DNA of 63,591 nucleotides. It comes from Firmicutes bacterium FC7. GTDB taxonomy: Bacteria; Bacillota; Clostridia; Tissierellales; Tissierellaceae. The notes under the pieces are model-generated. The model was given only the letters and a program-made list of their open reading frames with translations. It searched no databases and was not told where the DNA came from. The position numbers and the translations under genes are program-made. The DNA is taken from contig JAKELU010000012.1 of NCBI GenBank assembly GCA_022760735.1, positions 1-63,591 on the forward strand. The letters run 5' to 3'. Shown here one piece after another: positions 4,374 through 29,997 of the stretch (its first letter is position 1; each line of letters begins with the position of its first letter).

Positions 4374-5490
4374 AGTTAAATGCATCCTTTACTTTTTCAA
4401 AGAAGCTCTTTTTTTGTTCCTTGAACTCTTCTCCCTGTTCCTTACTAAGTTCGATTAATAATTCTCTTTGCCTATCTGTTAACTTTGTTGGAACCTTAAC
4501 ATCTACTGTAAAATATAGATCTCCTCTTCCAACACCTCTTACATTAGGTACACCTCTACCTTTCAGCTTAAATTGAGTTCCTGTCTGTGTACCCTCTGGA
4601 ATAGTGAACTTTTCAGTTCCTTCTAAGGTAGGAACAACAATTTCTGCTCCCAAAGCTGCTTCTGTAAATGATATTGGAATATTTAGGTATATATTATTCC
4701 CTCTTCGTTTAAATATTTCATCTTCCTTAACTGAAATATAAACATATAAATCACCTGGACTACCTCCACGAAGGCCACCTTCACCTTCACCCTTAACAGA
4801 GATGATAGAATCATTATCCACTCCTGCAGGTACCTTTATCTTTATTCTCTTATTTTTTACTTCTCTTCCTGACCCGTTACATGTAGGACATTTTTCCTTA
4901 ATTATCTCACCTGTCCCATTACACTGGTCACAAGTACCTACACGAACAAACTGACCAAATGGAGATTGTTGAGCATATCTTACCTGTCCACTACCATGAC
5001 ACTTCGGACATGTTTCTTTATTTGTACCTGGCTTAGCACCAGAACCATTACATGTAGAACAATTTTCAGTTCTTCTAATTTGAATTTCCTTTTCAACTCC
5101 GAAAATAGCTTCTTCAAATTCTAATGTCAAGTCATATCTTAGATCGGCACCTCTGACTGGTCCATGTTTCCTCTTCTGCGTATATCCGCCACCAAAGCCG
5201 CTTCCAAAGATATCAAATATATCATCAAAAATGTCCCCAAATCCGCCAAAGCCTGAAGCACCAGCTTGACCATTTACCCCTTCTTCACCATATCTATCGT
5301 ATCTGGCCCTTTTATTTTCATCACTTAAGACTTCATATGCCGTATTTACTTCTTTAAACTTTTGCTCTGCTTCAGCATTGTTGGGATTTAAATCTGGATG
5401 ATATTTCTTTGCCAGCTTTCTGTAGGCTCTTTTTATTTCATCGCTAGTAGCATTTCTATCTACTCCGAGAATTTCATAATAATCCCTCAA
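4372..5490 (-). CDS. dnaJ: Chaperone protein DnaJ (Hsp40)
   Basis: A 372-residue type I DnaJ, co-chaperone of DnaK. The J domain begins [14 protein letters not shown] with the HPD motif near residue 31. It is followed by a Gly/Phe-rich linker (about 75-105), a zinc region with four CxxCxGxG repeats ([32 protein letters not shown]) and the C-terminal client-binding domain. The start is a TTG at 5490, fixed by the conserved N-terminus, with a weak AAAGG-type site upstream. A 32-bp palindrome separates it from dnaK. Confidence 0.97.
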
Positions 5491-22676: not shown

Positions 22677-22698
22677 AAAAAAAGCGACCTAAGTCGCT
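22677..22698 (-). terminator. Terminator of tRNA-Sec
   Basis: On the minus strand AGCGAC, a TTAG loop, GTCGCT and six T residues, starting 10 bases after the CCA end of selC. Confidence 0.9.
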
Positions 22699-22707
22699 AA
22701 TTTACAA

Positions 22708-22804
22708 TGGCGGGAGTATGTGGGAATCGAACCCACCCAGGACGCTATTAACGCCCCGCGCTAGTTTTGAAGACTAGAGAGCCCACCAGAACTCATCTAC
22801 CCCC
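22708..22804 (-). tRNA. selC: tRNA-Sec (anticodon TCA)
   Basis: A 97-base tRNA including an encoded CCA, longer than any ordinary tRNA as expected for tRNA-Sec. The anticodon TCA (22768-22770 complement) sits in loop CTTCAAA on stem CTAGT/ACTAG. The T arm GTGGG-TTCGATT-CCCAC, a long extra arm (GCGGGGCG... region) and a long acceptor stem (GGGGGTAG with ATACTCCC, one mismatch at its base) are visible. It is charged with serine, converted by SelA and delivered to UGA by SelB. It lies beside selB, selA and selD. Confidence 0.96.
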
Positions 22805-22819
22805 TTACATACAAACTTC

Positions 22820-22848
22820 ATTATACATTAATTTGAGAAAAATATCAA
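22820..22848 (-). promoter_or_regulatory. Promoter of selC
   Basis: On the minus strand TTGATA (22843-22848 complement), 17 bases, TATAAT (22820-22825 complement), placing the start site about 8 bases before the tRNA 5' end. It lies right after the response regulator stop codon. Confidence 0.75.
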
Positions 22849-22852
22849 TTAT

Positions 22853-23542
22853 TTATTTTTCTCTAAAATAATAACCAACACCCCATTTTGTAAGTATGTA
22901 CTCCGCCTCCTTAGGATCTCTTTCAATTTTCTCTCTGATTCTCCTAATGTGAACATCTACAGTCCTTAAATCCCCATAATAGGCATATCCCCATACTTTT
23001 TCAAGAAGCTCTTCACGTGAAAAAACTTTCCCTGGATTCGATGCTAAGACGTATAGCAAGTCAAACTCCTTTCCAGTTAAATTTATATTCCTATCTTCCG
23101 ATATGACTTTTCTGCCCAAAGTATTAATTGAAAAGTCTTTAGTTTCTATTAGAGTGTTAGCTTGATCATTATTTTTGTTGTTTACCCTTCTAAGTATAGC
23201 CTTTATCCTAGCTTTTAATTCAAGTATATTGAATGGTTTTACCAAATAATCATCAGCACCATATTCTAATGCCAAAATTTTCTTAATATCATCATTTATT
23301 TCAGAAAGAAATATAATAGGAACCTGTGAGAGGTTTCTAATATTTTGACATATTGTAAGTCCATTCATATCAGGAATTTCTAGCTCTATTAAAACCAATT
23401 CATAAATTTTATTTTCTACTTTTTCGATAGCATCTTTGCCTGAAGTACTTATATCAATTAGGTAACCATCCTGCTCTAAACTATATTTAAGTCCTTTAAC
23501 AAAGGACTTATCAGTATCTATTATTAATATCTTACCGCTCAT
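22853..23542 (-). CDS. Orphan OmpR/PhoB-type response regulator with atypical receiver
   Basis: A 229-residue protein with an N-terminal receiver domain (about 1-120) and a C-terminal winged helix (about 130-229, with RTVDVHIRRIREKIE and GVGYYF). The receiver keeps K102 (LVKPF) and S80 (FLS). The phosphoacceptor position is E53 (LVLIELEIPDMNG) instead of Asp, and the acidic pair is D9-T10 rather than two acidic residues. Normal phosphorylation is therefore unlikely; Glu can mimic the phosphorylated state. No histidine kinase gene is nearby. It lies 17 bases after selB and just before selC. Start is ATG 23542 (GAGGTGA site). Confidence 0.9.
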   Translation of the reverse strand: MSGKILIIDTDKSFVKGLKYSLEQDGYLIDISTSGKDAIEKVENKIYELVLIELEIPDMNGLTICQNIRNLSQVPIIFLSEINDDIKKILALEYGADDYLVKPFNILELKARIKAILRRVNNKNNDQANTLIETKDFSINTLGRKVISEDRNINLTGKEFDLLYVLASNPGKVFSREELLEKVWGYAYYGDLRTVDVHIRRIREKIERDPKEAEYILTKWGVGYYFREK

Positions 23543-23558
23543 CAAATCACCTCAAAAG

Positions 23559-25469
23559 CTAATTTGTCAATGTCCTTCTTTCACCATCTCTTCTAGTAAT
23601 TTTAAATTGATCAAATAATTCCAAGAGACCTAATGCTATCTTTCTATTTGTACCTAAAATGTCTCTATACTCACCAATCGTTATACCACCATTTTTATGA
23701 ATAAAATCCTTTAACAACTCTACAGCCTTGTTGTAACTGCTAGCAAGAATAAATATATCTTCATTAATTTTTACTAATGTTCCATCATTAATTAAAGCAT
23801 TTATAACTTCCTCTATTTCTTCTTTAGTTGAGTTTAAATTAGCTGCAAGATCATCCTTTCGAGGTGGTAGATATTCAGCGGCTCTAAGCTTCTCTATAAT
23901 TAGATTCTTTATTTTAAGTTGATCATTTGAATAATTTATTTTAAACTCTCTCAGCTTAACCAAATCATTTACCTGCTCTATTAACCCCTGATCAAACAAT
24001 AGCTGTAGAATTTGATCAGCTACTTTTGGTTTTGCTTTATTTAACACCCTGCTTCTTAATTCCTCTTTTGGAATACCATTTCTTAAAGGAAACTTATTAT
24101 GGTAAAGCATCACTTCATTTATAATCGAATCTTTAATTTTATTAAAAAATGTTACATGTATTGGATATACTTCTTTTGAAGAGGTTAATAATATTACTTT
24201 GTTTGCATCAACCAATTTTTCAATATCTTGAATTACAGCATCTTCTAGCATAGATGTTTCCTTTGAAATCTCTTTAACTGAAATAAAATCCTTACTTTTT
24301 TCCTGCAGTATTTTTTCCAATATTTCCTCAGAATTACCCGACTCCTTAACTATTAATTCCTCAATCACCTTATTATCAAATCTCTTTCTTTTTACTGCAT
24401 TTGGTTCTAATACTTCACCCCCACCAATAGTGAATACAGGTGAATAAAATCTTAGAATAAATTTATCCCTTCTTTTACAAACAATTGGTTCCTCAAGTCT
24501 TAATTGGGCATATGCCTCTTCTCCTGGATTTAACTCATCTCTATCTAATAATACAATTCTACATAGTACTTCTTTAGCACCAATATAAAGATGTAATCTT
24601 GTCCTATTTTCAATTATCCTATCTATTGATTTAAGAAGTTTCACCTTTACATCAAGGATCATAGTCTCCTTCATAGAATTTACTGGAGCAATTACAGAGC
24701 CTCTACTTACATCTTCTTTCCTAACACCTGTAATATTTATGGCTACTCTCTGTCCTCCAAAAGCTACCTCTGCGTCTTCGTCATGTACCTGAAGAGTTCT
24801 TATTCTAGATTTTATACCATTAGGGAAAATTTCAATTTCATCACCTATTTTAAATTGGCCAGATAAAAGCGTTCCTGTAACGACAGTTCCAAAACCAGAT
24901 ACAGTAAATACCCTGTCTACAGGTAATCTAGGCATACTATTTAAATCACGTTCATCTAGTTGATTTGAATATGATTCTATTAATTCAATTAAATAATTAA
25001 TTCCTTTTTTAGTAGTTGATGACACTTTTATTATATCACTACTTTCAAGGAATGTACCCTTTATCTCTTTCCTTATATCATCTTCTATTAATTCTAACCA
25101 CTCTTCATCTACTAAATCCGTTTTTGTTATTACTACTATGCCTTTTTTTATTCCTAATATATCCAATATTGCCAAATGCTCTTGTGTTTGTGGCATAATC
25201 CCCTCATCAGCAGCAACTACCAATAATACTATATCTATACCAAATATACCAGCAAGCATATTTTTTATAAATTTTTCGTGCCCAGGTACGTCTACAATCC
25301 CTGCTCTTTTTCCACTTGGTAAATCAAAATATGTAAAACCTAAATCTATAGATATCCCTCTTTTTTGCTCCTCTTTTAATCTATCAGTATTTCTACCAGT
25401 TAAAGCTTTTATAAGAGTTGTCTTTCCATGATCTATATGCCCAGCAGTGCCAATAATTACATGCTTCAT
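23559..25469 (-). CDS. selB: Selenocysteine-specific elongation factor
   Basis: A 636-residue translational GTPase that brings Sec-tRNA-Sec to in-frame UGA codons marked by a SECIS hairpin. The G domain holds GTAGHIDHGKTTL, VDVPGHEKF and VITKTDLVD. EF-Tu-like domains II and III follow, then winged-helix repeats at the C-terminus (about 370-636) that bind SECIS RNA. The ATG at 25469 shares a base with the selA stop (TAATG), a sign of translational coupling. AAGGAGTG lies upstream. Confidence 0.97.
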   Translation of the reverse strand: MKHVIIGTAGHIDHGKTTLIKALTGRNTDRLKEEQKRGISIDLGFTYFDLPSGKRAGIVDVPGHEKFIKNMLAGIFGIDIVLLVVAADEGIMPQTQEHLAILDILGIKKGIVVITKTDLVDEEWLELIEDDIRKEIKGTFLESSDIIKVSSTTKKGINYLIELIESYSNQLDERDLNSMPRLPVDRVFTVSGFGTVVTGTLLSGQFKIGDEIEIFPNGIKSRIRTLQVHDEDAEVAFGGQRVAINITGVRKEDVSRGSVIAPVNSMKETMILDVKVKLLKSIDRIIENRTRLHLYIGAKEVLCRIVLLDRDELNPGEEAYAQLRLEEPIVCKRRDKFILRFYSPVFTIGGGEVLEPNAVKRKRFDNKVIEELIVKESGNSEEILEKILQEKSKDFISVKEISKETSMLEDAVIQDIEKLVDANKVILLTSSKEVYPIHVTFFNKIKDSIINEVMLYHNKFPLRNGIPKEELRSRVLNKAKPKVADQILQLLFDQGLIEQVNDLVKLREFKINYSNDQLKIKNLIIEKLRAAEYLPPRKDDLAANLNSTKEEIEEVINALINDGTLVKINEDIFILASSYNKAVELLKDFIHKNGGITIGEYRDILGTNRKIALGLLELFDQFKITRRDGERRTLTN

Positions 25470-26884
25470 TAAATACACTCCTTGAAAAGTTTAAGGACAG
25501 TCTTTATACCATCTGCAATAATAAAGATCTCATCATCATTTATTGTCCTTAAATCAAAATATATTCTGTCTTTATATACTCTAGCTATTATTGGAACTTC
25601 ATAATCCCTTAACATTCTTTCAAAAGTTTGAATACTCTTTCCTTTCAGAGAAATTACAATACATTTTGTAGGAATTTTTTCTAATGGTAAAGAACCTCCT
25701 CCTACTTCTGAAAAATCGTCTTCTATTGTTATATCAACTATATTTGAATAGTCATATATTAAATTTCTTAAGGTTTCTGCCTTTTTATTAATAATATCTA
25801 TTGATTCTGTTAACATCCTCATAGTAGGTATTTCCTTAACTGCCCAGTTTTCATCTAAATAAAACCTTAATGTTCCTTCCAATGCTGCTAAAGTGAACTT
25901 ATCCACCCTAAAAGCCCTAGTTAATGGATTCTTTTTCATAGCATCTATATATTTTTTCTTCCCAACTATAATTCCAGCCTGAGGTCCACCCAGCAATTTG
26001 TCACCACTAAAGGTAACAATATCAACCCCCCTGCTCAAAGCATCTTGAACAGTTGGCTCATATTCAAGGCCATATTTTGATAAATCAATTAATACACCAC
26101 TACCTAAATCTTCGATAACTGGAATATTGTATTGTGTTTTTAATTTGATTAGCTCTTCTGAGCTAACTGATGATGTAAATCCTAGAATCCTATAATTAGA
26201 AGTATGAACCTTTAATAATGCTGCTGTATTCTCATTTATTGCATTTTCATAATCATATAAATGAGTTTTATTCGTGGTACCAACCTCTACTAAGTTAGCA
26301 CCGCTCTGTATCATTACATCAGGTATCCTGAAAGAACCACCTATTTCAATTAACTCACCCCTTGAGACAATAACCTCTTTATCCTTTGCAATCGTATTTA
26401 GAGTAAGTAAGACTGCAGCAGCATTGTTATTTACAACCATTGCTGCTTCTGATCCCGTACATTTTGTTATTAATTCTTCTACATGGCTATATCTAGATCC
26501 TCTTATACCATTTGCTAAATCAAATTCTAAATTTGAATAGTGAGTTACTACTTCTTTAATATGGTCCATTATTTTATCATTTATAATTGATCTTCCTAAG
26601 TTTGTATGGATTACTACGCCGGTAGCATTTATAACTCTTCTTAGTTTATATAGGTTTTTTACTTTTACCCTCTGAACTATATTGTTCTCTACATTTGGTA
26701 ATATATCTAAAAACTCTTCTTCACTTATATTATTTCTTATTTTATCTCTTAACAGTTCTATTTCTTCTCTTATGGCTTCTAAAACCAATTGTCTAGGATG
26801 ACTTAATACTAGCTCTTCAATAGTAACTCTTCCTAGTAATTCATCAACCTTTGGTAATAGTTTAAAAAGATTCTTTTTTCCCAT
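25469..26884 (-). CDS. selA: L-seryl-tRNA(Sec) selenium transferase
   Basis: A 471-residue PLP enzyme that converts Ser-tRNA-Sec to Sec-tRNA-Sec using selenophosphate. The PLP lysine is in TFSGDKLLGGPQAG. Other SelA motifs are NATGVVIHTNLGR near residue 88, VNNNAAAVLL, and the N-terminal helical tRNA-Sec-binding region. ATG 26884 is preferred (AAGGA site 8 bases upstream) over one 9 bases earlier. It sits between selD and selB with a stop/start overlap on the selB side. Confidence 0.97.
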   Translation of the reverse strand: MGKKNLFKLLPKVDELLGRVTIEELVLSHPRQLVLEAIREEIELLRDKIRNNISEEEFLDILPNVENNIVQRVKVKNLYKLRRVINATGVVIHTNLGRSIINDKIMDHIKEVVTHYSNLEFDLANGIRGSRYSHVEELITKCTGSEAAMVVNNNAAAVLLTLNTIAKDKEVIVSRGELIEIGGSFRIPDVMIQSGANLVEVGTTNKTHLYDYENAINENTAALLKVHTSNYRILGFTSSVSSEELIKLKTQYNIPVIEDLGSGVLIDLSKYGLEYEPTVQDALSRGVDIVTFSGDKLLGGPQAGIIVGKKKYIDAMKKNPLTRAFRVDKFTLAALEGTLRFYLDENWAVKEIPTMRMLTESIDIINKKAETLRNLIYDYSNIVDITIEDDFSEVGGGSLPLEKIPTKCIVISLKGKSIQTFERMLRDYEVPIIARVYKDRIYFDLRTINDDEIFIIADGIKTVLKLFKECI

Positions 26885-26901
26885 AGCACCCATCCTTGTT
26901 T

Positions 26902-27930
26902 TTATTCTACTATTAGAGGAAACTCACCTTCTTCTAATACTTCTCCTATTATGGCGTATTCAGTAGGTGATTTTTCTAACTCTTTAAGTAATTGAGGAGC
27001 TTTTTCTTTTTCAACGGATATTAATAACCCTCCAGATGTCTGTGGATCGAATAATATATCTTCTATATCTTTCTCTATTTTGTTTTTGAAACATATTTTG
27101 CCACCAATATGATTCCTATTGGAATATGCCCCTGCTGGTATTAACCCCATTTTTGCAAATTCAGTTGCTCCCTTTATAATAGGAACTTTACCTGAATCTA
27201 TTTTAATGGTTACAGAGCTTCCTTCTGCCATCTCTAATGCATGGCCTAAAAGACCAAATCCAGTTATATCCGTAACACTATGTACTCCACCTACTTTATC
27301 TATCGCCTCTTTACCAAATCTATTTAATGTGGTCATCACTTTTACTGCATATTCATAGACTTCTTTACCAGCTAAATCAGCTTTAATGGCAGTATTTATA
27401 ATACCTAAACCTAAAGGTTTAGTTAAAACCAATACATCAGAAACTTTTGCATTACTATTACTTAATACTTTATTTGGATGTACAAACCCAGATACAGATA
27501 ATCCATATTTTGGTTCATCATCGGAAACTGTATGTCCTCCTACTAGTATTGCGCCTGCTTCTGAAACCTTGTCTGCCCCCCCTCTTAAAATTTCTGCTAA
27601 GATTCTTGGGTTTAGGCAATTCGGAAAACACACAATATTCATAGCTAATTTGGGTTCTCCCCCCATAGCATAAACATCACTAAGGGAATTAGCTGCTGCT
27701 ATTTGTCCAAAGATATAAGGATCATCGACAACCGGTGTAAAAAAATCTAAGGTTTGAATTAATGCTATATTATCATTTATCTTATATACTGCAGCATCAT
27801 CCGATGTATCAAAACCAACCATTAGATTGACGTCTGTCATTTTTGGTAAGTGACACAAGACCTGTGTCAATATATCGGGACCGATTTTTGCCGCTCAACC
27901 AGAGCTCTTAGTCAACTGTGTTAATCTCAT
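26902..27930 (-). CDS. selD: Selenide, water dikinase containing selenocysteine (UGA at codon 12)
   Basis: Makes selenophosphate from selenide and ATP. The reading frame crosses an in-frame TGA (27895-27897 complement): [20 protein letters not shown], which matches the SelD active-site region where the residue is Cys or Sec. It then continues [13 protein letters not shown], with [25 protein letters not shown] and [10 protein letters not shown]. Total length is 342 residues. The ATG at 27930 is used; TTG at 27936 is better spaced (8 bases) from AAAGGAGGGG and may be the true start, adding two residues. A SECIS-like hairpin follows the UGA. A conventional ORF call would start after the UGA and lose the active site. 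Confidence 0.96.
27852..27868 (-). promoter_or_regulatory. Bacterial SECIS hairpin in selD
   Basis: In the selD mRNA GACACA-GGUCU-UGUGUC forms a 6-bp stem with a 5-base loop. The loop starts about 32 bases after the UGA, within the known spacing range for bacterial SECIS. The GGUCU loop is the same as that of the well-studied E. coli fdhF SECIS. It lies inside the coding region, as usual in bacteria, and would recruit SelB. Confidence 0.85.
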
Positions 27931-27950: not shown

Positions 27951-28589
27951 TTACTTTACAGTAATCAGTTCTTTAATTCCTTCATATTTCTTTTCACCAA
28001 TACCTGATACATTTAGTATATCTTCTATTGTCCTAAATGGATTAGTTGCTCTATATTCAATAATCCTATCTGCAATAACATCCCCTATTCCAGGTAAAGA
28101 TACAAGTTCACTTTTTGAGCAAGTATTGATATTTATTTTACCATCATTGACACTTATATTTGAAGTAGTTATATAATTTACATCGTTAGTTTCTAATATA
28201 TTCTCCCCAGTTTTTGGAATATATATCTTTTCTTCATCTACTAGCTTTTTAGCTAAATTAATCCTATCTAAGTCTGCGTCTTTTGTTAAACCCCCTGCTA
28301 ATTTAACTGCATCATCGACTCTATCTCCATTTACCAACTCATATACTCCCGGAAAGTAAACCTGTCCACTAATATGTACCATTATTATTGAATCTTCTAT
28401 ATCTTCTATATCTTCTATATCATCAAGTTCACTATTATCTTCAGTCTCAACAACATTGCCAACAGTATTTTGTACTATATCCTCTACTGTTTTCTTATTC
28501 AAAATTACATACTTGAAACCTAGGGATAAAGTAATTAGGAAAACTAATACTAGTATAACGATTTGTTGTTTTTTTGTAAAGTCATCCAT
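27951..28589 (-). CDS. comEA: Competence protein ComEA, DNA receptor
   Basis: A 212-residue membrane-anchored protein. One N-terminal hydrophobic segment (about 9-27) is followed by a linker with an acidic repeat (DIEDIEDIED). A SLBB-type domain comes next (IMVHISGQVYFPGVYELVNGDRV), then a C-terminal double helix-hairpin-helix (INTCSKSELVSLPGIGDVIADRIIEYR) that binds DNA. It delivers DNA to ComEC. ATG 28589 has AGGAGG upstream. Here it is followed by selD rather than comEB/comEC. Confidence 0.94.
   Translation of the reverse strand: MDDFTKKQQIVILVLVFLITLSLGFKYVILNKKTVEDIVQNTVGNVVETEDNSELDDIEDIEDIEDSIIMVHISGQVYFPGVYELVNGDRVDDAVKLAGGLTKDADLDRINLAKKLVDEEKIYIPKTGENILETNDVNYITTSNISVNDGKININTCSKSELVSLPGIGDVIADRIIEYRATNPFRTIEDILNVSGIGEKKYEGIKELITVK
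28392..28418. repeat. 9-bp tandem repeat (three copies) in comEA
   Basis: Three exact copies of TCTTCTATA on the plus strand encode the EDI repeats of the ComEA linker. Because the unit is 9 bases, gain or loss of a copy would change the linker by three residues without a frameshift. Confidence 0.8.
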
Positions 28590-28664
28590 ATGGTTACCTC
28601 CTAATTGTATTCTTATAAATGCAAGCACCTTTATTAATGCTTAATTAATAATTCGACTATTTTG

Positions 28665-28693
28665 TTGGAATTCCTTCTTTTTTTTGTTATAAT
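28665..28693 (+). promoter_or_regulatory. Promoter for the D-Ala-D-Ala carboxypeptidase gene
   Basis: TTGGAA (28665-28670) and TATAAT (28688-28693) with a 17-base spacer, about 32 bases before the TTG start codon. Confidence 0.7.
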
Positions 28694-28725: not shown

Positions 28726-29997
28726 TTGAAAAAGGTCATTTATCTATTAATAATTTCAATTATCTTAGGTACCTATACAACTGCTTTTGCTGATAATTTA
28801 CCATTAGAAGGCGAAGCTGCAATTCTTATGGACTTCGATACCAAAGAAATACTATACGAAAAAAATATGAATGAGAGACTTTATCCAGCTAGCACGACTA
28901 AAATTATGACAGCAATACTAGCTCTAGAGTTGGGTAACCTTAATGATATTGTAACTGTAGACCAAGAGGTCGTGAACTTGACAGAAGGAAGTCACATTGC
29001 CTTGGAACCTGGCGAAAAAATGACTTTAGAACAAATGATAAATGCACTTATGGTTGCATCTGCCAATGATGCTGCATTCGCCATAGCTAAGCATATTTCA
29101 GGATCTATTGATGAGTTTGCAAAATTAATGAACGATAAAGCTAAAGAATTAGGTGCTACAAATACTAACTTTGTCAACCCAAATGGATTACATGAAGATA
29201 ATCATTACACAACTGCATATGATCTTGCATTAATAGCTCAATATGCAATGAAGAATCAAACTTTTAGAAATATTGTTGACACTGTTACATATACTATAGA
29301 GCCAACAAATGAAAAAGAAGATACAAGATACTTGAAAAATACTAATAAACTTTTATTTAGCAGCGATAAGATTTATGTAGATGGAAAATATATTCCAATT
29401 AAATATGAAGGTGCCTCTGGTATTAAGACTGGAACAACTAGTCACGCGCAATACTGTTTAGTTTCATATGCAAATAGAGATAATCAAAAACTTATTGCCG
29501 TAGTTTTAAAATCCAGTGCAAATGGAGTTTATAGTGATACTCACAACCTTTTAAACTATGGATTTAATAAATTCGATAATATAACTATAGGATTTAAGAA
29601 TGAGTTCATTGAAAATATTAAGGTTGAGGATGGAATTCAGCCTTATGTAGCAGGAATTCTAGGTAATGATTTCATATACCCACTTTCAGAAGAAAATATA
29701 GGACGAGTTGATATGAAAGTAAATCTGAGAAGCAGTTTAATTGCACCAATTAATAAAGGAGAGATCCTTGGTTTTGCAGAATTCTATCTAGATGGTAGAC
29801 CTCTTGGAAAGGTTGATATAGTTTCTACAATGGACGTAGAGCTAGACCCCATGACTAAGACATCCTACAAAATCTTAAGTAAATGGTATTTATTTGTATT
29901 TGTCTTTATTATACTTATAAGAGTTGTAGTTTTACAAAAACGTAGAAAAAGAAAATCAAGAAGAAGATCTTATCGTGTTCCATATGAAATAAAATAA
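28726..29997 (+). CDS. D-alanyl-D-alanine carboxypeptidase, S11 family (DacF-like)
   Basis: A 423-residue penicillin-binding protein that trims stem peptides of peptidoglycan. A signal peptide ends near residue 22 (TTAFA). The active-site set is ASTTK (Ser near 56), SAN (near 111) and KTGTTSHA (near 235). A PBP5-like C-terminal beta domain follows, then a membrane helix (about 385-403) and a very basic tail (KRRKRKSRRRSYR). The start is TTG at 28726 with AAGGTGGTG upstream. Its own promoter lies upstream and it is divergent from comEA. Confidence 0.93.
   Translation: MKKVIYLLIISIILGTYTTAFADNLPLEGEAAILMDFDTKEILYEKNMNERLYPASTTKIMTAILALELGNLNDIVTVDQEVVNLTEGSHIALEPGEKMTLEQMINALMVASANDAAFAIAKHISGSIDEFAKLMNDKAKELGATNTNFVNPNGLHEDNHYTTAYDLALIAQYAMKNQTFRNIVDTVTYTIEPTNEKEDTRYLKNTNKLLFSSDKIYVDGKYIPIKYEGASGIKTGTTSHAQYCLVSYANRDNQKLIAVVLKSSANGVYSDTHNLLNYGFNKFDNITIGFKNEFIENIKVEDGIQPYVAGILGNDFIYPLSEENIGRVDMKVNLRSSLIAPINKGEILGFAEFYLDGRPLGKVDIVSTMDVELDPMTKTSYKILSKWYLFVFVFIILIRVVVLQKRRKRKSRRRSYRVPYEIK

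Follow-up and report, generated by a model that had tools for sequence, protein, structure and literature searches.

A selB-adjacent response regulator in a Tissierellaceae genome as the probable kinase-free survivor of a two-component system

Introduction

How does a response regulator work when its phosphorylation pocket is altered and no kinase gene stands beside it, and does its place among selenocysteine genes tell what it controls? The question is raised by a gene on the minus strand of the window, by which we mean the whole stretch of 63,591 nucleotides of Firmicutes bacterium FC7 (Tissierellaceae) that was analysed. A sequence-only reading of this DNA had noticed glutamate at the phosphoacceptor site of the encoded regulator, and had supposed a constitutively active or ligand-controlled protein, possibly acting on selenoprotein or sel genes. 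More generally, activation and inactivation of bacterial pseudo-receivers are called a mystery in the portion of a 2025 review at hand (PMC12632262). Here we compare the locus with its relatives in the order and in the rest of the class. The comparison of sequences suggests that the gene is probably what remains of a two-component system, and that its selenium neighbourhood has another explanation than shared function.

The regulator gene and its surroundings

The open frame occupies 22853-23545 on the minus strand (230 residues), with an in-frame TTG 3 nt ahead of an ATG at 23542; since this ATG has a GAGGTGAT box just upstream and is the likely start, 22853-23542 is the likely gene, encoding 229 residues. 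Its product is an OmpR/PhoB-type response regulator with a pseudo-receiver (PF00072, Response_reg, 9.6e-25) and a DNA-binding domain (PF00486, Trans_reg_C, 7.3e-31), and the AF2 model has a complete receiver and winged helix with a mean pLDDT of 85.6. The nearest solved structure, both by sequence and by fold, is MtrA (2gwr). The structure search is uninformative on the activation state, since the receiver is about equally similar to BeF3-activated ArlR and YycF and to receivers in the unactivated state. Counted from the ATG, the pocket reads D9-T10-D11, E53, S80 and K102, so that D9, S80 and K102 are retained while glutamate (codon gag, 23384..23386, minus strand) stands at the phosphoacceptor position and threonine (23513..23515, minus strand) at the second acid, a position which we take to be that of a direct Mg ligand. 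Sequence and alignment thus agree with the sequence-only reading on all these residues.

The surrounding genes, all on the minus strand unless noted, form an orderly series. Directly upstream of the regulator lies selB (23559..25478), preceded by selA (25469..26893; both by Pfam) and by a gene with AIRS domains (26902..27870) which we take from its sequence to be selD and whose orthologues hold the same place in relatives. Further upstream is a comEA-like gene with SLBB and HHH domains by Pfam (27951..28628), which in relatives without sel genes adjoins the regulator, and, divergent from it on the plus strand, a dacA-like carboxypeptidase gene (28726..29997; PF00768). On the other side a tRNA scan places selC, the gene of tRNA-Sec, at 22708..22804. 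Only 16 nt separate the selB stop from the regulator ATG, and 48 nt the regulator stop from selC, which confirms the reported adjacency to both. The regulator seems to close a comEA-selD-selA-selB-regulator run as its last coding gene. A sigma-70-like site, TTGATA-17-TATAAT (22820..22848, minus strand), between regulator and selC is a candidate selC promoter; it matches at 11 of 12 positions and is the best of 29 sites, where shuffles give a mean of 32.5 sites. A terminator-like hairpin lies 3' of selC (22683..22698, minus strand), one of 3 such sites against 2.2 expected from shuffles.

Loss of the kinase and of the phosphorylation pocket

A search of 40 relatives separated orthologues (lowest identity 54%) from the next paralogues (at most 50%). 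A profile built from 13 orthologues (A1) was then applied, at E <= 1e-95, to 249 genomes from the order; this cut-off misses the more divergent f4 copies, and those were examined separately. The profile yielded an orthologue in 111 genomes, or 112 loci, among records that include a Tissierellia MAG (L097), Schnuerera sp. xch1, [Clostridium] ultunense and Sedimentibacter acidaminivorans. One locus (L067, in G023), whose regulator is cut by a contig end, was not counted. The congener G003 carries a second selB-regulator-selC copy (L064) on a contig of 4163 bases (C100), 56% identical to the window protein, which is either contamination or a duplicate; it was counted as a locus and left out of the SelB tree. 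As for the linkage seen in the window, the regulator directly follows selB in 110 of the 112 loci, whereas in G195 and G203 of family f19 it lies behind comEA and neither genome has a selB match. In G203 (L206), a genome 87% complete, selC is found 51 nt behind the regulator (5346-5443, minus strand).

The question whether selB-adjacent orthologues keep the two replacements has a divided answer. Three congeners, with 78-84% identity to the window regulator, all have glutamate at the phosphoacceptor site and carry T, I and T at the second acid. A strain-specific change or a sequencing artefact was ruled out by the glutamate common to these three congeners. In family f1 the site is E in 15 of 25 loci, D in 7, G in 2 and N in 1.

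The state of the pocket can be set beside the presence of a partner. A histidine kinase gene overlaps or directly follows the regulator in 40 of the 112 loci, and all 40 regulators have the canonical pocket (D-D, D, T/S, K); these kinases carry a SHEL[RK]TP box, and all five scanned with Pfam have HisKA and HATPase_c. The other 72 loci lack an adjacent kinase, 49 of them outside family f19 and 23 within it. Every one of the 49 (families f1, f2, f4 and f6), 43 of which have more than 1.2 kb of sequence downstream, misses at least one pocket residue, and so do all 11 further f4 regulators behind selB. Among the 49 the second acid is aspartate in only 3, and the phosphoacceptor position holds D in 25, E in 19, G in 2, N in 2 and S in 1. 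Beyond the host genus, glutamate at this site is found in f4, in G028, in two f19 genomes (G210 and G215) and, outside the order, in Tepidibacter formicigenes. In the latter (L160, 3630-5314) the arrangement is selB, regulator and a Germane lipoprotein, with cysteine in place of the switch tyrosine, and there is no kinase match between regulator and lipoprotein.

Family f19, which comprises Sedimentibacter and relatives, has no adjacent kinase either, yet 20 of its 23 loci are canonical, as are 18 of the 19 with more than 1.2 kb downstream. Its pocket is thus mostly canonical and its gap behind selB is long, which indicates that kinase loss does not force pocket decay or promoter loss.

Relocation of the kinase was ruled out in all 16 kinase-less genomes tested. 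A kinase profile (A2) was run on these and on four controls, and the best match reached 733-776 bits in the four controls (next-best 309) and at most 334 bits in the 16, so the orthologue appears to be gone rather than moved. The same search covered six f19 genomes and found no orthologue elsewhere in any of them. In the host genome (G000) a whole-genome search for the kinase family (E <= 1e-55) gave six matches, on contigs C1, C3, C9, C23 and C41, none at orthologue level and none on the window's own contig C4, which extends the earlier observation that no kinase gene is nearby. A SelB tree of 104 rows shows 3 changes in kinase presence, 5 in the canonical pocket and 11 at site 53. It offers only 3 independent pairs in which to set loss of the kinase against decay of the pocket (sign test, p 0.25-0.5), so that the association cannot reach significance on the order's tree.

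Selection on the retained surfaces

Pairwise dN/dS was computed by our own Nei-Gojobori script, with medians over 182, 33 and 56 pairs for kinase-less, kinase-bearing and f19 loci, fewer where saturated. The medians are 0.132 for the receiver and 0.090 for the DNA-binding domain in kinase-less loci, against 0.037 and 0.022 in kinase-bearing ones; f19 has 0.068 and 0.028. Both domains are under purifying selection. Column entropy is raised in every region of the kinase-less loci, with helix 5 and the strand-5 loop still the least variable. The 49 kinase-less loci show no variation at eight of 11 recognition-helix positions (194, 195, 197-199, 201, 202 and 204). On the dimer face, whose residue roles we take from PhoB, D98 and D99 are kept in all 49, K89 in 43 and K115 in 45, while Glu109 is lost in 13 and lysine replaces Arg113 in 12.

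History of the locus and candidate promoters

Outside the order, 40 of 104 loci in the rest of the class were fetched. All 40 regulators are canonical; a kinase lies directly downstream in 37, comEA directly upstream in 24 and selB directly upstream in 2, and the remaining 3 are canonical without a kinase directly behind. A GerMN-lipoprotein-like protein is encoded further downstream in 34, a label given by similarity to reference sequences and accompanied by the Pfam Germane domain in both of the two scanned. In the commonest layout of the rest of the class, a divergent dacA is followed by comEA, a regulator with a canonical receiver, the histidine kinase and the GerMN lipoprotein; the divergent dacA-comEA pair is seen in the order as well. 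In the order, selD-selA-selB stand between comEA and the regulator, and in the host lineage neither kinase nor lipoprotein lies between regulator and selC.

The position of selC bears on the same history. Where ARAGORN found selC, and with L236 (a second fetch of G219, equal to L070) left out, it follows the regulator at 27-144 nt in 21 of the 25 kinase-less loci that are not from f19 (at 668, 987, 1064 and 7960 nt in the others) and at 1466-6751 nt in all 12 kinase-bearing loci; 12 f19 loci, measured separately, have 5 at 48-253 nt and 7 at about 4.6 kb. The short distance in kinase-less loci is as if the segment between regulator and selC had been removed. Since class loci mostly read comEA-regulator-kinase and only 2 of 40 regulators stand behind selB, the sel genes look as if they had been inserted into an older comEA-regulator-kinase locus. 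The simplest history, with its direction deduced from present gene orders, would be that an existing comEA-regulator-kinase-lipoprotein locus took up selDAB and afterwards lost the kinase and lipoprotein genes between regulator and selC. The place of the regulator beside selenocysteine genes would then look like an inherited neighbourhood rather than a shared function.

In the window there is no room for a promoter of the regulator's own, because it begins only 16 nt after selB. The selB-regulator gap has a median of 18 nt in the 49 kinase-less loci (range -38 to 46, the negative values arising from early start codons), against 65.5 nt (16-239) in loci with the kinase and 107 nt in f19, compared by a Mann-Whitney test that ignores relatedness. 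Upstream of comEA, a sigma-H-like element (28651..28677, minus strand) fitting the sigma-H consensus used in the scan, RNAGGAWW-N15-GAAT, is a candidate promoter of the comEA-selDAB-regulator run. Strict matches occur in 26 of 77 comEA-dacA intergenic regions (the 112 loci gave 80 such pieces, 32 of them giving none, and 3 pieces shorter than 120 bases were dropped), compared with a mean of 0.56 and a maximum of 3 in 100 shuffles. The f19 loci lack the element (0 of 20), and a strict match occurs in 8 of 20 f1 loci. As a side observation, selenocysteine genes may be read from a competence or stationary-phase promoter if this candidate element acts as such. Upstream of dacA, counts of direct repeats (periods 9-13 and 20-22 bp) and a Gibbs search, controlled by shuffling blocks of two bases, gave no shared binding site, only AT-rich or promoter-like signal; a single excess was seen at period 9 in loci without kinase (39 of 62 against 24.8).

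Control of the regulator and alternative readings

The best reading of these comparisons is that the regulator is a phosphorylation-independent pseudo-receiver, whose activity is probably governed by how much of it is present. Sequence evidence supports a loss of phospho-control well: the acids are lost and the kinase orthologue is gone, while the protein keeps its fold, its DNA-reading helix and most of its dimer face. The regulator would dimerise and bind DNA without phosphorylation. Its output would be set by the amount made, as the last coding gene of the comEA-selDAB-regulator run with its sigma-H-like candidate promoter, and its target regulon would be inherited from the two-component system rather than being the sel genes in particular. 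We hold this account as a whole, a kinase-free DNA-binding dimer under dosage control with an inherited regulon, to be reasonably probable. In the host genus E53 may help to hold the active state, possibly as a phosphomimic; the constitutive activity that the sequence-only reading drew from the glutamate is thus possible and not required, since kinase-less relatives have D, G, N or S there. In C. difficile WalR, according to the available part of PMC9210968, D54E gave no general rise of expression over overexpressed wild type, and overexpression may itself activate, which would fit control by amount.

More tentatively, and with rather less confidence than we give to the account above, one locus may record the whole path: the kinase is lost first (f19, pocket mostly canonical), then the metal-binding acid, then the phosphoacceptor aspartate (often to glutamate, in several lineages), and sometimes the lysine, the helix that reads DNA and the greater part of the dimer face being preserved throughout. 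By the end the regulator would be locked in the active state, with the signal replaced by comEA/sel-operon dosage.

The altered pocket may instead have been put to new use, with a small ligand, a partner protein or cysteine redox gating dimerisation as in other pseudo-receivers, for which such mechanisms are described in the accessible text of PMC12632262. Position 12 (TTG numbering) is glutamate in all 40 kinase-bearing loci and aspartate in 48 of the 49 kinase-less ones, a derived residue more regular than plain decay would give, and Cys66 is invariant in alignments A1 and A3. However, Asp12 is perhaps only a helix cap, since it lies just before helix 1 (13-24) of the AF2 model, Cys66 is present in kinase-bearing A1 rows too, and the other pocket residues differ between genera, which is not what a ligand site would show. 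We regard such gating as unlikely, at a level that still deserves attention.

Less likely still is that the protein is devoted to controlling the sel operon or selenoprotein genes and would autoregulate selenium use. This could be argued from the 110 of 112 order loci in which the regulator adjoins selB, and from two f1 genomes (G005 and G009) that have neither a selB match nor a clear orthologue (best 46% and 43%, paralogue level). Against this stand the class sample, with 24 of 40 regulators directly behind comEA and 2 of 40 behind selB, the two f19 genomes mentioned above that keep the regulator without a selB match, and family f4, in which 49 of 130 genomes have a selB match. Seventeen of the 49 f4 selB loci were sampled and have a degraded regulator directly behind selB in 11 and none there in 6; three of these six genomes carry the regulator behind comEA-selD instead. 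Fourteen further f4 regions comprise 6 with comEA-selD-regulator and no adjacent selA or selB (three from those same six genomes), 2 with selA-selB-regulator, 4 with the regulator and a protein of 581-582 aa, and 2 that are WalR-like; the regulators of the 12 that are not WalR-like are all degraded. The four genomes with the 581-582 aa protein (G109, G110, G112 and G121) have no selB match and keep the degraded regulator before it. By Pfam this protein is oligopeptidase F in both of the two scanned, and in G121 a chaperonin precedes the regulator. In a tree of 143 columns with long branches that places other f4 rows elsewhere, the four regulators belong to a clade (SH-aLRT 98) whose 16 rows are all from f4 and include 12 from sel loci. 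Conversely, G013, G049 and G050 have selB without a regulator behind it; of the 20 selB loci compared on this point, 9 in all lack the regulator there.

Across genomes, then, presence of the regulator is not tied to that of sel genes, and a dedicated role is unsupported, since four genomes that lack a selB match still carry a degraded regulator. The proposal that the regulator serves selenoprotein or sel genes thus finds no backing, the same regulator standing elsewhere in a comEA-regulator-kinase locus, and as the main reading it was ruled out by co-occurrence. Among the papers listed by literature searches, no title or abstract opening describes a regulator or two-component system behind selB; unlisted papers, the body text of genome papers and subscription journals may hold one. 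The locus also counsels caution in inferring function from proximity to sel genes.

It is very improbable that the gene is a relic in decay, kept only as a passenger of the sel operon: it changes faster than in kinase-bearing relatives, is absent from some genomes and has an in-frame stop in one f4 copy (G156), but in neither domain does dN/dS come anywhere near 1, no stop lies inside the match in the 112 order matches listed, the fold is complete in AF2 and most recognition-helix positions are invariant. Continued phosphorylation by another kinase or by acetyl phosphate, to which the retained D9, S80 and K102 and the 25 kinase-less loci with aspartate at the site would lend themselves, is equally hard to credit with glutamate at that site in the host genus and a second acid other than aspartate in 46 of 49.

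Comparison with known systems

The preferred reading, a kinase-free regulator controlled by its amount, can be set against three kinds of known system. The regulator lacks both the full D-D-D-T/S-K pocket and the partner kinase of a canonical two-component system. Its nearest structural relative, MtrA, belongs to the MtrAB-LpqB system of Actinobacteria, in which LpqB has a Germane domain, and kinase-bearing relatives of the window regulator likewise have a lipoprotein behind the kinase, which carries a Germane domain in the only case scanned; the window regulator, however, scores 211.1 bits against the 300-bit NCBIfam cut-off for MtrA, and its lineage has lost kinase and lipoprotein. The NCBIfam score for WalR/YycF of Bacillota is strong at 223.6 bits, below the YycF cut-off of 340 bits, and the host genome has a separate WalR-like regulator on contig C3 with a kinase of 596 aa. 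None of five scanned kinases of relatives matches PAS and three of the five match a Cache-like domain; the WalK of C. difficile is Cache-bearing without PAS in the part of PMC9210968 at hand.

The closest likeness is to the aspartate-less or pseudo-receiver regulators RitR, ChxR and HP1043, which, going by the portions available of PMC4395418 and PMC12632262, share the OmpR/PhoB architecture, the replaced phosphoacceptor aspartate, the lost second acid and the orphan gene; glutamate is the commonest replacement of that aspartate (26%) in the same part of PMC4395418. A receiver fold with the aspartate replaced is present here by PF00072, E53 and the AF2 model, and the cognate kinase, usually though not obligatorily missing in such regulators, is missing from the window genome, so that by sequence and model the window regulator fits their structural definition and would work as they do. 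What distinguishes it from RitR, ChxR and HP1043 is that kinase-bearing, kinase-less canonical and degraded orthologues share one conserved locus, a series absent from the portions of PMC4395418 and PMC12632262 compared. Orthologues with and without the kinase, with intact and with broken pockets, occupy the same genomic place, and each step can thus be tested by swapping natural variants.
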